This document shows positions 4,740-10,732 of a DNA stretch of 10,732 nucleotides, piece by piece. This DNA is from Acidobacteriota bacterium. Its GTDB lineage: Bacteria > Acidobacteriota > Blastocatellia > Pyrinomonadales > Pyrinomonadaceae. Position 1 is the stretch's first letter; every line of letters begins with the position of its first letter. The notes beneath the pieces were generated by a model. The model was given only the letters and a program-made list of their open reading frames with translations, ran no database searches and was not told the DNA's origin. The stretch spans positions 24,326 to 35,057 of the forward strand of contig QHXL01000099.1 of the NCBI GenBank assembly GCA_003222935.1. The letters are read 5' to 3'. Both the position numbers and the translations under genes were made by a program.

Positions 4740-5399
4740 TTGTCTGGCAATTTCAAACTGAGTCCTTCCGCCCCATTGGTGGACATTCAGAGTAGGCCCC
4801 GTTTTTGGACGGGTGTAGCCTTAGACCGGCTCGGAGTTGGATCCCTCGATTGGTCAGTCGTCCTCACTTTGGTTCTTCTCGTTATCCTCGGCCTTGGTCT
4901 TCGTGTCACTCAACTCGGCGCAATCGGTTTTGCCGAGGATGAAATGAACAAATTGGATGCCGTGCATGCCTACGAGCGAGGCGACTTCTCAGTCAATGCC
5001 GAACATCCGATGGTGATGAAGGTCTTGATGCTGCTCTCGTTGCACGTCGCACCAAATGCGAGTGAAGAGGCAGCACTTCGCTTTCCGAATGCGCTCATCG
5101 GAGCTCTCACCGTGATTCCACTGTTTCTCCTGACGGGAGCTTTCTTTGATCGCAGAACTGCATTACTCGGCTTTCGGCGTCAACGCCATCACACACAATC
5201 GCATTGGAAAAGAAGATTCACTGCTAGTGTTCTTCATGCTTTTCGCGTACTTCTTCTTCCTTCGAGCAAAACAGTCAGCACCGCAAAACAAACTCGCAAG
5301 ACAACGGAATTACATCGCCAGCGCCATCGCTTTTGGGTTAATGATCGCTTCCAAGTACTTTCCTCACTACCTTGGCCTCAATATGCTCTTTCACCATAA
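4740..5399 (+). CDS. PMT/ArnT-like glycosyltransferase, N-terminal fragment (frameshifted)
   Basis: Begins with TTG behind AAGAGG. Meaningful protein runs to about residue 143 (5168): a short cytoplasmic head, TM1 at about 39-58, the first outer loop 'GFAEDEMNKLDA' (63-74), 'AEHPMVMKVL' (87-96) and a second TM at about 116-135 ending 'FFDRRTALL'. The acidic pair D67/E68 in loop 1 is the catalytic site position of the GT39/GT83 (protein O-mannosyltransferase/ArnT) superfamily, which transfers sugars from polyprenyl-phosphate carriers outside the membrane. After 5168 this frame turns into a basic, non-membrane sequence (RRQRHHTQSHWKRR...) and stops at 5399, while the family sequence continues in the next frame. 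It is therefore the front part of one broken or mis-sequenced gene together with 5146-6372. Confidence 0.75.
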   Translation: MSGNFKLSPSAPLVDIQSRPRFWTGVALDRLGVGSLDWSVVLTLVLLVILGLGLRVTQLGAIGFAEDEMNKLDAVHAYERGDFSVNAEHPMVMKVLMLLSLHVAPNASEEAALRFPNALIGALTVIPLFLLTGAFFDRRTALLGFRRQRHHTQSHWKRRFTASVLHAFRVLLLPSSKTVSTAKQTRKTTELHRQRHRFWVNDRFQVLSSLPWPQYALSP

Positions 5400-6372
5400 C
5401 TTTCATGCTTACCAGCCAAAGCCGGGAGAACCGGGCGCGAAGACACCGCTTCTGTTTTTCCTCCTTATCGGTGTTGTACTTGTCGCCGTTAGTCCGGCAC
5501 TCCTGATGCCACAAGTTTGGCAGTACATGAATGCCTACATGGGTGAGCGACTTTTATCGCACTCCGGATACTTGTTTGCCGGTCAACTCTACAAGAACAA
5601 CATGTCGAGTTCGCCTTTTGGGGGAACGCCCGTTTACTTTTACCTCGTGTTTTTGGCGATCAAAGTTCCACTCTTCATTGTTGCCGGTTTTCTACTCGGG
5701 CTGATTGTGGCGATAAAACGAAGACGAGAGATTGGCTATGCATTTTTGATCTTCATGTTTCTGTTTTGGATAGTTCCCTACTCATTGATAGGCGGAAAAT
5801 GGTTGCGCTACACGCTCTCGTTAATGCCGATTGTTTACATGCTTGCTGCTGTGGGTGTGATTGCTCTGATCGACTGGGCTAAGTCGAAATTTCCCGAGTC
5901 AAAGCACGCGTCGGTAGTTGTTACTGGAGTTGCCGTCGCTCTTTTTGTTGTCGTACCGGCGTGGACAGCCTTCGCTCATGCACCACATTACGCGCTCTAC
6001 ACCAACAAACTCGCGGCAAGCAAAGCAGGCTTCTTTTTTCCTCATGATGAGTTTTACGACGACGGCTTACGCGAGGCGATCAGCTACATCTGCGAGCAAG
6101 CGCCCCCGGGTGCTACCATCGCTCACGAGACCCCGGGAGTAACCAGGTATTACTTGAAAGAGTTTGGCCGCACCGATCTAAATTCAAAAACAATTTCGGC
6201 TGGGGATTTTAGTCCTTTGACCCAATCGGGAACCGTCTATGTAATTGCGCAACGTGGGCGCACGTATTTCGAGAACCGCGCTGAACTCGAAGTTGTGCGA
6301 TCGAACTTTCAAAAAGTACATGAAGTGACGATCGACGGTGTCAGCGCAGTTGAGATATTTGTAAAGCATTAG
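5146..6372 (+). CDS. PMT/ArnT-like glycosyltransferase, C-terminal fragment (frameshifted)
   Basis: This frame carries the remainder of the glycosyltransferase from about 5170 on ('AFGVNAITHNRIGKEDSLL'). The nominal TTG start at 5146 has no biological support, since the real protein enters from the other frame. Several membrane helices follow, then 'GGKWLRYTLSLMPIVYMLAA', which fits the conserved K..RY...P motif before the last helices of PMT-superfamily enzymes. About 130 residues of soluble C-terminal domain end the protein at the TAG. Joined, the two fragments give about 543 residues, normal for the family. The acceptor and sugar donor cannot be told. The metallophosphatase gene starts 58 bp downstream on the same strand and may be co-transcribed. 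Confidence 0.8.
   Translation: MIAELHYSAFGVNAITHNRIGKEDSLLVFFMLFAYFFFLRAKQSAPQNKLARQRNYIASAIAFGLMIASKYFPHYLGLNMLFHHNFHAYQPKPGEPGAKTPLLFFLLIGVVLVAVSPALLMPQVWQYMNAYMGERLLSHSGYLFAGQLYKNNMSSSPFGGTPVYFYLVFLAIKVPLFIVAGFLLGLIVAIKRRREIGYAFLIFMFLFWIVPYSLIGGKWLRYTLSLMPIVYMLAAVGVIALIDWAKSKFPESKHASVVVTGVAVALFVVVPAWTAFAHAPHYALYTNKLAASKAGFFFPHDEFYDDGLREAISYICEQAPPGATIAHETPGVTRYYLKEFGRTDLNSKTISAGDFSPLTQSGTVYVIAQRGRTYFENRAELEVVRSNFQKVHEVTIDGVSAVEIFVKH
5157..5178 (+). other. Frameshift site within the glycosyltransferase gene
   Basis: Up to CTC at 5166-5168 the family sequence is in the frame of 4740; from GCT at 5170 it is in the frame of 5146. Compared with my memory of the family, where about 15 residues separate 'TALL' from the 'R' of the next loop motif, about four residues seem to be missing. 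A small deletion of length 2 mod 3, for example 11 nt, would explain both the gap and the shift; a one-base insertion or a sequencing error is also possible. There is no slippery heptamer. Confidence 0.65.
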
Positions 6373-8080: not shown

Positions 8081-8096
8081 GAACTGTGATGAACTA

Positions 8097-8143
8097 AAAA
8101 CCAAAACGGCAACCCGGGGGCGTTGGGTTGCCGTTTTGGTTTT
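8097..8143. terminator. Bidirectional intrinsic terminator, 19 bp perfect stem
   Basis: AAAACCAAAACGGCAACCC (8097-8115) pairs without mismatch with 8125-8143 around a 9 nt loop (GGGGGCGTT). The right arm ends in TTTT for the plus transcript of the phosphatase gene; on the minus strand the stem ends in TTTTT, so it can also stop the convergent secreted-protein transcript. Confidence 0.88.
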
Positions 8144-8149
8144 GGGGAG

Positions 8150-8210: not shown

Positions 8211-8678
8211 TTACTTTCGAGCGAGTGCAATCTCGACTCGTTCATACTTTAGATTCCTGGTCTTCGGGTTCGCTGAGAGTTCTGTTCGGGTGGCTTCTTC
8301 GGCACTCGACTCACGTAAGACGCGGCCTGTGGAGTAGCCTGCACTCCAAACTTCAGCCAGGAAGTAGGAATTTCCATAACGGTGAAACACAAGCTTCGCT
8401 CGCGAACTGGGCCTTGTACTGACGAGCGCATTTGAAAGTCGCATCACCGAGAGAGAACGATTGGTCGATCTGACTCGTATCGTGTCTCCACCTGACGTTA
8501 TCTGGGCGACGTCGTATCTTCCAGCGGGCATAGTCTGACTGCCGATCGTGAATTCAAAGGGGACGTTCGCGATTTGGTTACGTGACGATTGTCCATTTGC
8601 CGACACGGCGGCGCTGATGAGAGTCAAAGTTGCTATCAACAGCAACATCGTCATCTTTTTGATCATAGGTTGTGCCAT
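8211..8678 (-). CDS. Small secreted protein of an Acidobacteriota-type family, function unknown
   Basis: 155 residues. An N-terminal signal peptide (KK at 7-8, hydrophobic 11-25) has a probable cleavage after 'VSA' (residue 27), so the mature protein is exported. The mature part begins with 'NVPFEFTIGSQTMPAGRYDV' (38-57), then a beta-rich domain with 'LVFHRYGNSYFLAEVW' (96-111) and 'GYSTGRVLRESSAEE' (114-128). I recognise this pattern as a recurrent family of small secreted proteins in Acidobacteriota; no activity is known to me, and no catalytic residues stand out. Start: ATG 8678 has GAGGAGG at 5 nt. The frame remains open to an ATG at 8843, but that extension is not signal-peptide-like and would cover the predicted promoter. 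A -24/-12 promoter match lies upstream. The gene is divergent from a sigma54 activator that may control it. Confidence 0.85.
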   Translation of the reverse strand: MAQPMIKKMTMLLLIATLTLISAAVSANGQSSRNQIANVPFEFTIGSQTMPAGRYDVAQITSGGDTIRVRSTNRSLSVMRLSNALVSTRPSSRAKLVFHRYGNSYFLAEVWSAGYSTGRVLRESSAEEATRTELSANPKTRNLKYERVEIALARK

Positions 8679-8683
8679 GGTTG

Positions 8684-8690
8684 CCTCCTC
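8684..8690 (-). promoter_or_regulatory. Strong ribosome binding site of the secreted-protein gene
   Basis: GAGGAGG (minus strand), 5 nt before ATG 8678; the strongest Shine-Dalgarno noticed in the window. It decides this start over the upstream in-frame ATG at 8843 and predicts high translation. Confidence 0.8.
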
Positions 8691-8735
8691 TAGTGCATTA
8701 CTGCTTGGGTCAGGATTCTTGTCGATATCCCTCAT

Positions 8736-8751
8736 TGCTAGACGCATGCCA
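8736..8751 (-). promoter_or_regulatory. Candidate sigma54 (-24/-12) promoter of the secreted-protein gene
   Basis: Minus strand reads TGGCATGCGTCTAGCA against the RpoN consensus TGGCACG-N4-TTGCA. It has the invariant GG and GC exactly 10 bp apart and 10 of 12 specified bases agree (mismatches at the sixth and thirteenth positions). Transcription would start near 8725, leaving about 47 nt of leader with the strong Shine-Dalgarno. The divergent neighbour is a sigma54 activator, which raises the likelihood. No sigma70-type pair was evident for this gene. Confidence 0.55.
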
Positions 8752-8835
8752 CAAGTGATCGCCAAACTGAGCAGTTGAATCATTGAGCATTTGCGTACTT
8801 GTATGTTCGCCGGCATTTGCTGAGGATCCTTATCC

Positions 8836-8872
8836 CTATCCATTCGGATAGACTTTTTATCCGGTCGGATAG
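8836..8872. promoter_or_regulatory. Tandem palindromic sites, candidate activator-binding (enhancer) sequence
   Basis: Two 16 bp near-identical elements: CTATCC-ATTC-GGATAG (8836-8851) and TTATCC-GGTC-GGATAG (8857-8872). Their centres are 21 bp apart, two helical turns, so bound dimers would sit on the same face of the DNA. An additional half-site TATCC is at 8831-8835. They lie about 119 and 140 bp upstream of the predicted sigma54 start of the secreted-protein gene, and 79-115 bp upstream of the activator gene's ATG. Both positions suit an upstream activating sequence and autoregulation. The binding protein is inferred, not shown. Confidence 0.6.
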
Positions 8873-8950
8873 CAAACTCGTCCAGGTATTGGCAAAGAGA
8901 AATGATTGTCTGAAAACTTAGGCACGCGTAGACTTTGACTCATCTCAATC

Positions 8951-10732
8951 ATGGAGCCACGACTCACAGCCATCGCGGGAAAACTTAAGGGCGCTGTATT
9001 CAAACTCGCCGACGGTCCATTTGTGATCGGCCGTGAAACGGCGGCGAATTTGTGTCTCGCCGACGCTTCCGTGTCGCGGCGCCATTCAGTAATTGAAAAG
9101 AAAGAGGACGCTTATGTAATTGCGGATCTCGAAAGTTTGAACGGGACGTTTGTTAATGATGTGCCAGTTAGATCTCGACGACTGGAACATGGGGACCACG
9201 TAAAGATTGGCGAGTCGCAGTTTTTGTTTTTGGTCCATGAGGACACCCCTTCCAAGTCGAGTCATGTCAACCTGGAAGATCGTCAAGTGCTCAGTGGATC
9301 GACAGTACAACTGCGTTTCGATGAAGCGCTGTACGTGATGGCTCGAGATCTCAGTGCGTTGATGAAGATCAGCACAGCGATCAATGCCATTCGTGGTCTT
9401 GAAGACCTCCAGCAACGTTTACTTGAGCTTCTCTTCGAAGTTGTCCCGGCTCAACACGGAGCGATACTGCTAACGGCGAATGAGTCACTCGACGACAACT
9501 CAGTATTCGCACTGGATCGCGCCGAAGGTCGAAACCAGTCAGTAACGGTGAGTAAAACAATCGCACAGCAGGTATTAAGAGAAGGAGTGGCCCTCTTAAC
9601 TTCCGACCTTGAGAACGACGAGGAATTAACGAGTGATAGTTTGATCCAGTCTCAGGCCGTTTCTGTCATGTGTGTGCCGTTAATGATGTTGGATCGCAAG
9701 TTAGGCGTCTTGTATCTCGACACACCGCTAAAAGGCGACCGGTTCAATAAAGATCATTTGCAGTTAGTGACTGCCATCTCATGCATTTCAGCTGTGGCGA
9801 TTGAAAATGCGCGCCACTTTGAATGGTTGGAAAGTGAGAACCAACGACTCCTCGAAGATGTAAACATCGAACACAACATGATCGGCGAAAGTGCTGCGAT
9901 GCAACGCGTCTATCATTTTATTTCGAAGGTGGCGCCGACCGAGTCAACTGTCTTGATAGTTGGCGAAAGTGGCACCGGTAAAGAGTTGGCGGCCCGTGCG
10001 ATTCACCGCAATAGCAAACGTTCACAGAAGCCTTTCATGGCCGTCAATTGTGCCGCACTAACCGATACGCTTTTGGAGAGCGAACTGTTTGGTCATGAAA
10101 AAGGCGCATTCACCGGGGCATTCACGCAAAAGAAAGGTCGACTCGAGACAGCCGACGGCGGGACAGTATTTCTTGACGAGATTGGCGAACTTACGCCGTC
10201 GCTACAGGTAAAACTACTGCGAGTTCTGCAGGAGCGTGAGTTCGAACGCGTTGGCGGAACGCTAACGATAAAGGTCGATCTTCGTCTTATTGCCGCGACA
10301 AATAAAAATCTTGAAGACGCGATTGCGTCAGGTGAGTTCAGGCAGGACCTTTTCTATCGACTTAATGTTGTGTCGTTTGAGATGCCAAGATTGAAGGACC
10401 GAAAAGAAGACATCCCCCTGCTCGCAAGTTATTTTGCGCAGAAGTACAGCAGCAAATGTAACCGGCGAATTATCGGTGTCTCGACGGAAGCCCGAACTTA
10501 TTTAAGTAGTTACGATTGGCCTGGCAACGTGCGTGAGTTTGAAAATGCGATCGAACGCGCAGTGGTCCTTGGCTCGACTGATTTAATCCTACCCGAGGAT
10601 TTGCCAGAAACTTTGCTTGAGACAGAATCTAACATTTCACCAAGCACGAATTATCACGATGCCGTTACTCAGACTAAGAAGCAGATTATTCTTAGTGCGA
10701 TGGAACAATCGAAGTCAAACTATACCGATGCG
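8951..10732 (+). CDS. FHA-GAF-AAA+ sigma54-dependent transcriptional activator (partial, C-terminus cut)
   Basis: 594 codons are open to the window edge. Domains: FHA (about 4-95) with 'IGRE' (26-29), 'SRRH' (42-45) and 'NGTFVND' (64-70), the residues that bind phosphothreonine. GAF-like sensor (about 135-290, '[19 protein letters not shown]'). Sigma54-interacting AAA+ domain (about 310-545) with Walker A 'GESGTGKE' (338-345), the sigma54-contacting 'GAFTGA' (385-390), Walker B 'VFLDEIGE' (406-413), '[11 protein letters not shown]' (463-473) with the arginine finger, and '[19 protein letters not shown]' (523-541). Residues from about 570 start a Fis-type DNA-binding helix region, truncated by the window. 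There is no receiver domain, so the input is probably a Ser/Thr-kinase phosphopeptide via FHA plus a GAF signal. ATG 8951 is the only start after the in-frame TGA at 8936; no Shine-Dalgarno is visible. Divergent from the secreted-protein gene it may activate. Confidence 0.95.

Follow-up and report, generated by a model that had tools for sequence, protein, structure and literature searches.

The window analysed here is a stretch of 10,732 nucleotides from an Acidobacteriota metagenome-assembled genome (MAG) of the family Pyrinomonadaceae (contig QHXL01000099.1, positions 24,326 to 35,057; G000:C547:24326-35057, where G, C and L numbers denote genomes, contigs and loci). Its right-hand part carries the gene of a predicted FHA-GAF activator of sigma54-dependent transcription and, divergent from it, the gene of a small exported protein of an uncharacterised family, hereafter SEC. 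Two tandem palindromes and a -24/-12 promoter element lie between the two genes, and a terminator-like hairpin follows SEC. The source MAG comprises 5.19 Mb in 695 contigs and is 88.6% complete. The features considered are the following:

8095..8144 (core 8109-8131), minus strand: terminator-like hairpin with a C-rich loop, closing the SEC transcript (from patterns, alignment and covariance model)
8211..8678, minus strand: SEC, exported protein of 155 aa, uncharacterised family (from open reading frame, signal peptide and homologues)
8684..8689, minus strand: Shine-Dalgarno sequence AGGAGG of SEC (from sequence reading)
8736..8751, minus strand: predicted -24/-12 sigma54 promoter element TGGCATGCGTCTAGCA, start probably near 8725
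8837..8850, no strand assigned: predicted operator half TATCCATTCGGATA of the tandem pair, the one closer to the sigma54 box
8858..8871, no strand assigned: predicted operator half TATCCGGTCGGATA of the tandem pair
8906..8934, plus strand: probable activator promoter of the sigma70 type, TTGTCT-N17-TAGACT (from sequence reading and relatives)
8951..10732, plus strand: FHA-GAF-AAA+ sigma54 activator, frame open at the window end, its helix-turn-helix (HTH) falling within or after a run of N immediately outside the window

Anatomy of the divergent locus

The initial annotation had described a divergent activator gene with an intact GAFTGA loop, and the open reading frame at 8951-10732 on the plus strand indeed carries this motif at residue 385. 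Pfam searches placed an FHA domain at residues 25-87 (PF00498, 2.7e-18), a GAF domain at 149-285, the sigma54-interaction AAA+ domain (Sigma54_activat, PF00158, 3e-73) at 310-475 and an AAA lid at 482-562. The N-terminal FHA domain possesses the GR, SRRH and NGTFVN residues, to which we presumably can assign a functional role. Complete relatives of the protein are about 620-650 aa long and end in a C-terminal HTH that appears Fis-like by eye. When compared with NtrC, NorR, NifA and other models of NCBIfam, the activator scored under each curated cut-off (among the best 25 of 43 models). A GCGTACACT-like -10 element was found at the equivalent place of the probable activator promoter in several relatives. 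Just past 10732 (L005), the open frame of the activator continues after the N run into a GNAT acetyltransferase domain.

The phased palindromes and the oppositely directed -24/-12 promoter of the initial annotation were both recovered. TATCCATTCGGATA (8837-8850) and TATCCGGTCGGATA (8858-8871) are spaced by 21 bp and together span 8837-8871, while TGGCATGCGTCTAGCA, at 8751-8736 of the minus strand, shows the ten-base GG/GC spacing of a TGGCAC-N5-TTGC-like element with two departures from consensus. Transcription from sigma54 promoters starts about 12 bp past the GC of the -12 element; by this usual rule the start was placed near 8725, which would leave the palindromes about 112-146 bp upstream, in agreement with the 110-150 bp previously estimated. 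A single TATCCN4GGATA is not rare, being present at four places in the genome with about five expected (ten fixed bases, 5.2 Mb); unlike the single copies, the tandem pair is rare. The other two palindromes of the genome (C541 and C414) were considered as targets and rejected, both lying inside coding frames, and a chance origin of the palindromes was rejected on the basis of the shuffles and reversed-pattern controls described below.

The small, exported and well-translated product foreseen for the divergent gene corresponds to SEC, whose 155 aa are encoded at 8211-8678 of the minus strand behind the AGGAGG at 8684-8689. A longer frame opening at 8843 was rejected as the true start, since the positions of the Shine-Dalgarno sequence and of the signal peptide set it at 8678. 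Searches with SEC (8211-8675 or 8214-8675, first Met omitted) returned 435 unnamed database relatives at E<=0.001, whereas the window protein matched no Pfam family at E<=0.001 and no NCBIfam family at E<=0.1. The structure model was beta-rich, with a mean predicted local distance difference test score (pLDDT) of 80.5 and blocks of the mature part mostly at 81-95, and its structural comparison returned no clear relative.

Conservation of the gene pair and its operators

An activator search at E<=1e-150 produced 63 rows in 45 of 118 family genomes, and 57 loci were examined, operators and boxes being counted at fixed thresholds. Tandem operators occurred within 450 bp upstream of the activator in 45 of the 57 loci (20 dinucleotide-shuffle sets gave a mean of 0.0 and a maximum of 0), and a divergent -24/-12 box within 650 bp also in 45 (shuffle mean 2.0, maximum 4). 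A divergent SEC gene was detected in 33 of the 38 loci whose activator is of the Tyr type defined below or has an unread HTH (three with the signal peptide only and one, L100, as a degraded remnant), against none of the 19 Asn-type loci. The joint conservation of gene pair, palindromes and box, for which the initial annotation had pointed to related genomes, was thus borne out. At L221 and L223, where SEC is gone, operators, box and hairpin are gone too.

Spacing was evaluated in the 36 loci that have both an operator pair and a box at a mutual distance of 20-200 bp. The operator period was 19-23 bp, and exactly 21 bp in 27 loci. The gap from box to pair had a standard deviation of 25.5 bp, compared with 96.3 bp for the gap from the pair to the activator ATG; this lower variance would be expected if the operators serve the divergent promoter.

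A contig scan returned 33 loci. Eight of them, L029-L036, are close orthologs with 68-74% identity, and a majority of six (L029, L031, L032, L033, L034 and L036) show two palindromes 20-21 bp apart together with an opposite-strand -24/-12 box; L030 and L035 have neither palindromes nor box. Searches blind to gene content were also made. A relaxed pair pattern matched in 21 of 119 family genomes, with 26 rows for 25 sites, and its reversed control in one genome. Besides the window's own, 24 pair sites were found, with the activator at 16, a SEC homologue at 17 (at L100 a remnant) and at least one of the two genes at 19, the remaining five (L091, L106, L110, L111 and L112) having neither. For a pattern joining one palindrome, 105-135 bp and TGGCAC-N7-GC, 20 of 118 genomes contributed 23 rows and the control none; 17 of the 23 lie at activator loci. 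The window is missed by this pattern, its gap being 85 bp long and its box reading TGGCAT. At two of the sites with neither gene (L106 and L111, from two genomes), the operator pairs precede a similar two-gene cassette, the small products of which are probably exported; weak, sub-cutoff carboxypeptidase-regulatory-like matches were obtained for the L111 pair and for the first protein of L106.

Alignment of the five close relatives L099, L100, L104, L105 and L107 brought out islands of conservation that coincide with the two palindromes, the box, the 5' leader and the promoter region of the activator. The SEC leader of these loci, from box to start codon, contains two conserved inverted repeats, GTAAG...CTTAC and GGTCGA...TCGACC, neither of which was seen in the shorter leader of the window. 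Across the phylum, the activator was matched in 32 of 347 genomes, and examination of 20 of the 31 out-of-family rows returned at least one site (<=1 mismatch) in 14 loci, tandem sites 20-21 bp apart in nine, a box in 11 and a SEC homologue in four.

Three loci (L092, L101 and L102) carry SEC together with operators and box and have no activator in the fetched flank, so that control of some SEC genes in trans is likely. L101 and L102 both belong to G109, a 75%-complete genome with two SEC genes provided with operators, box and hairpin, in which no activator was found at E<=1e-150.

The relation between the activator and its predicted operator was investigated on half-sites picked by TATC-N6-GATA, that is, with base 5 ignored. 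With Tyr in the recognition helix (HPN[Y]LHR), base 5 was C or T in all of the 88 half-sites, a site being present at 29 of 34 loci; with Asn at the same position, it was A or G in 51 of 54 (15 of 19 loci with a site). The exact sites outside the family likewise have C or T at base 5 and lie beside Tyr-type activators. In an alignment with NtrC, this variable residue would sit among the known DNA-contact residues. A tree was then built from the first 560 activator residues, HTH excluded, with 56 of the 57 loci (L105 was too short), and scored on 43 of them, leaving out four loci with an unread HTH, nine without an exact TATC-N6-GATA site and L233, which was tied. Residue and operator base agreed in 43 of the 43 scorable loci, and each changes twice on the tree. 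These data suggest that one recognition-helix residue tracks operator base 5, and we predict a one-residue/one-base recognition rule, which may stem from a single switch.

Four Asn-type activators (L234, L237, L242 and L245) have GAFTSA or GAFTTA in place of GAFTGA. A Ser/Thr kinase gene was found in the flanks of nine of the 57 activator loci, none being found by this flank search beside the activator of the window; a Ser/Thr protein kinase-like gene flanks all seven members of one Asn group (L228, L233, L235, L249, L251, L252 and L253). These neighbours fit a phosphothreonine input for that one Asn group only. Phosphothreonine sensing by the window's activator may be indicated by its FHA domain together with the kinase genes beside activators of a sister group.

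The hairpin at the 3' end

The hairpin downstream of SEC consists of GGCAACCC-AACGCCCCC-GGGTTGCC followed by a T tract. With one mismatch allowed, the fixed C-rich-loop pattern occurred a single time in the genome, and a similar hairpin pattern, again with one mismatch, gave six rows in five of 118 family genomes, all six at activator loci. G000, G029 and G048 share an identical 23-nt core, of which G115 has two copies. A total of 17 of the 22 hairpins was aligned, the four Asn hairpins and L093 being left out; 93.4% of the cells were paired and both sides had changed in eight of 16 pairs, a level reached in none of 500 shuffles, with pair-change counts that are inflated by the relatedness of the sequences. 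A search of Rfam gave no match.

A covariance model from this alignment was used to scan 71 loci (468 kb), the window's copy being a training sequence. Outside the training set, it matched L096, L101, L102, L114, L220, L224, L227, L257 and L275 at E<=0.0013 in the sense of the target, and L236 more weakly (E 0.037); the position of the match was compared with the SEC frame for L101, L102, L224, L227 and L236. The 40 control loci (203 kb) yielded one match, with an E of 0.02. Of the 26 loci outside training that have SEC or its signal peptide (the window excluded), 17 gave no match at E<=0.0013, and neither L093 nor any of the four Asn hairpins was recovered at E<=0.05; the hairpin is thus common in one part of the family and not universal. 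The Asn loci L238, L240, L243 and L244 bear a different hairpin, which has C in its loop and lies at a distance of 360-400 nt from the activator, and at L238 and L243 no protein was identified as target where it was looked for.

In six Tyr or unread loci (L108, L109, L218, L219, L226 and L257) the SEC mature domain is missing, but box, hairpin and one or both operators are retained. L108, L109 and L226 returned no SEC match, while in L218, L219 and L257 the frame is cut down to the signal peptide and a short tail (42-44 aa). The hairpin comes after this shortened frame, which may yield a micropeptide as output. The initial annotation contained neither these loci nor the hairpin, the residue-operator covariation or the operator-bearing SEC genes without an adjacent activator.

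A putative sigma54 circuit and its alternatives

We propose that the locus forms a local NtrC-type sigma54 circuit in which the FHA-GAF activator drives the divergent SEC promoter through the tandem operators, and we estimate the probability of this reading at roughly 85%. The activator would probably be produced from its own housekeeping-type promoter and would bind the TATCY-N4-RGATA operators via its Fis-type HTH. A signal that probably comprises a small ligand and a phosphothreonine partner would reach its FHA and GAF domains, and the signalled activator, as an enhancer-bound protein, would fire the -24/-12 promoter; the resulting transcript would encode SEC and end in the C-rich-loop hairpin. 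Comparison among relatives supports the predicted circuit through the co-conservation of activator, operators, box and SEC, through the spacing and through the tracking of base 5 by the helix residue. We infer from it operator binding, the direction of control, the start site, the signal and the role of SEC. Three of the four activators with an altered GAFTGA loop have no upstream tandem pair, which also counts in favour of the proposed circuit.

Several points weigh against it. The evidence is anatomical and comparative, derived from sequences. The HTH of the window's own activator is cut by the N run just beyond 10732 and so is absent from the assembly, the box departs by two bases from the consensus used, and the palindrome-to-box gap of 85 bp is atypical compared with the 108-126 bp of 22 of the 36 measured loci. 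No tandem pair was found in 12 of the 57 activator loci at the threshold used, and the failure of the covariance model to match most SEC or signal-peptide loci outside training points in the same direction. The residue-operator rule may represent one event, since the approximately unbiased test (p-AU 0.219) does not reject a tree with one Asn clade, and its one to two independent switches provide too few pairs for a test. Finally, searches of the 88.6%-complete MAG with two Pfam models and one relative's protein as queries did not recover rpoN. Since this MAG encodes 13 near full-length sigma54 activation domains, an assembly gap is the simplest reading of the missing gene. A lineage devoid of sigma54 was rejected for the family, where rpoN is present in 55 of 60 genomes and in 38 of 39 of good quality, including the four other genomes sampled from the genus, even though the MAG itself gave no rpoN.

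The palindromes might instead be mainly autoregulatory, repressing or activating the activator gene, with the divergent promoter incidental. They do lie between both genes, and in L108, L157 and L105 they are 10-62 bp from the activator ATG, where a bound protein would meet the activator's promoter. We consider this very unlikely, however, as the operator-ATG distance ranges from 10 to 358 bp and is far more variable than the distance to the box, and as L092, L101 and L102 have operator pairs and a box before SEC with no activator in the fetched flank. It is equally hard to credit, and if anything harder, that a different activator of this class encoded in the genome recognises the operators and that the linkage of the neighbouring FHA-GAF gene has another cause: the 13 activation domains of the MAG would offer candidates, and G109 has the operator-box-SEC loci L101 and L102 with no activator found at E<=1e-150, but the recognition-helix residue of the neighbour matches base 5 in every scorable locus and gene-blind operator searches mostly reach loci of this very activator.

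A further explanation, compatible with the proposed circuit, concerns its product. The lasting output might be the transcript itself, acting as a trans-acting RNA through the C-rich-loop hairpin or encoding a signal-peptide micropeptide, with SEC dispensable. This possibility, which we regard as doubtful, arises because six loci have lost the SEC mature domain and yet keep box, operator and hairpin; it is also favoured by the covarying pairs, by the core shared by G000, G029, G048 and G115, by the confinement of the pattern rows to activator loci and by the other C-containing loop at the Asn loci. The C-rich terminator loops of LhrC, a small RNA of Listeria monocytogenes, bind Shine-Dalgarno sequences (PMC4132741), and the loop described here could pair in the same manner; the predicted hairpin in our loci, however, usually ends an mRNA, and we note a resemblance and claim no membership. 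On the other hand, any locus that keeps the transcript must also keep its terminator, SEC is kept at most Tyr loci, and among the six SEC-less loci are those of two sister species as well as two paralogs from a single genome. In addition, the covariance model matched nine of 26 loci outside training and none of the four Asn hairpins, related sequences inflate the pair counts, Rfam offers no match and the case is one of anatomy. That the conserved product of the circuit is specifically a trans-acting RNA, with a 3' hairpin whose stem core is nearly invariant and whose C-rich loop may pair with Shine-Dalgarno sequences, and SEC a cargo frame that some lineages lost or reduced to a signal-peptide micropeptide while retaining switch and hairpin, seems rather improbable to us. 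If true, it would define a new class of dual-function RNAs in Acidobacteriota, gated by a signal and dependent on sigma54.

The proposed NtrC-type circuit shares with those of NtrC, NorR and NifA the GAFTGA AAA+ domain, the Fis-like HTH (here in the relatives) and tandem palindromes about 100-150 bp from a -24/-12 promoter, but differs from them in its sub-cutoff scores among the best 25 of 43 models and in its predicted target, an orphan exported protein. FHA-domain sigma54 enhancer-binding proteins of Myxococcus xanthus were reportedly described by Jelsbak, Givskov and Kaiser in 2005. These likewise fuse FHA to a sigma54 activation domain with a presumed phosphothreonine input, whereas here a GAF domain is added, the gene is divergent to that of one exported protein, the host belongs to the Acidobacteriota and the operators are predicted. 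A literature search, with most subscription papers outside it, turned up no description of a circuit of this kind for Acidobacteriota.

If the proposed circuit is correct, an uncharacterised exported-protein family with 435 relatives would gain a specific regulatory context, together with a predicted operator whose one-residue/one-base rule is directly testable and with further targets predicted in trans. The comparison also singles out a 3' RNA element that would otherwise count as an ordinary terminator, and some outputs of the switch may be RNAs or micropeptides.

Elsewhere in the window, a membrane glycosyltransferase-like gene occupies 4740-6372 of the plus strand as two overlapping frames (4740-5399 and 5146-6372). 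Its relative in L030 is a single frame across the matching part, which suggests a frameshift or an assembly error in the window.

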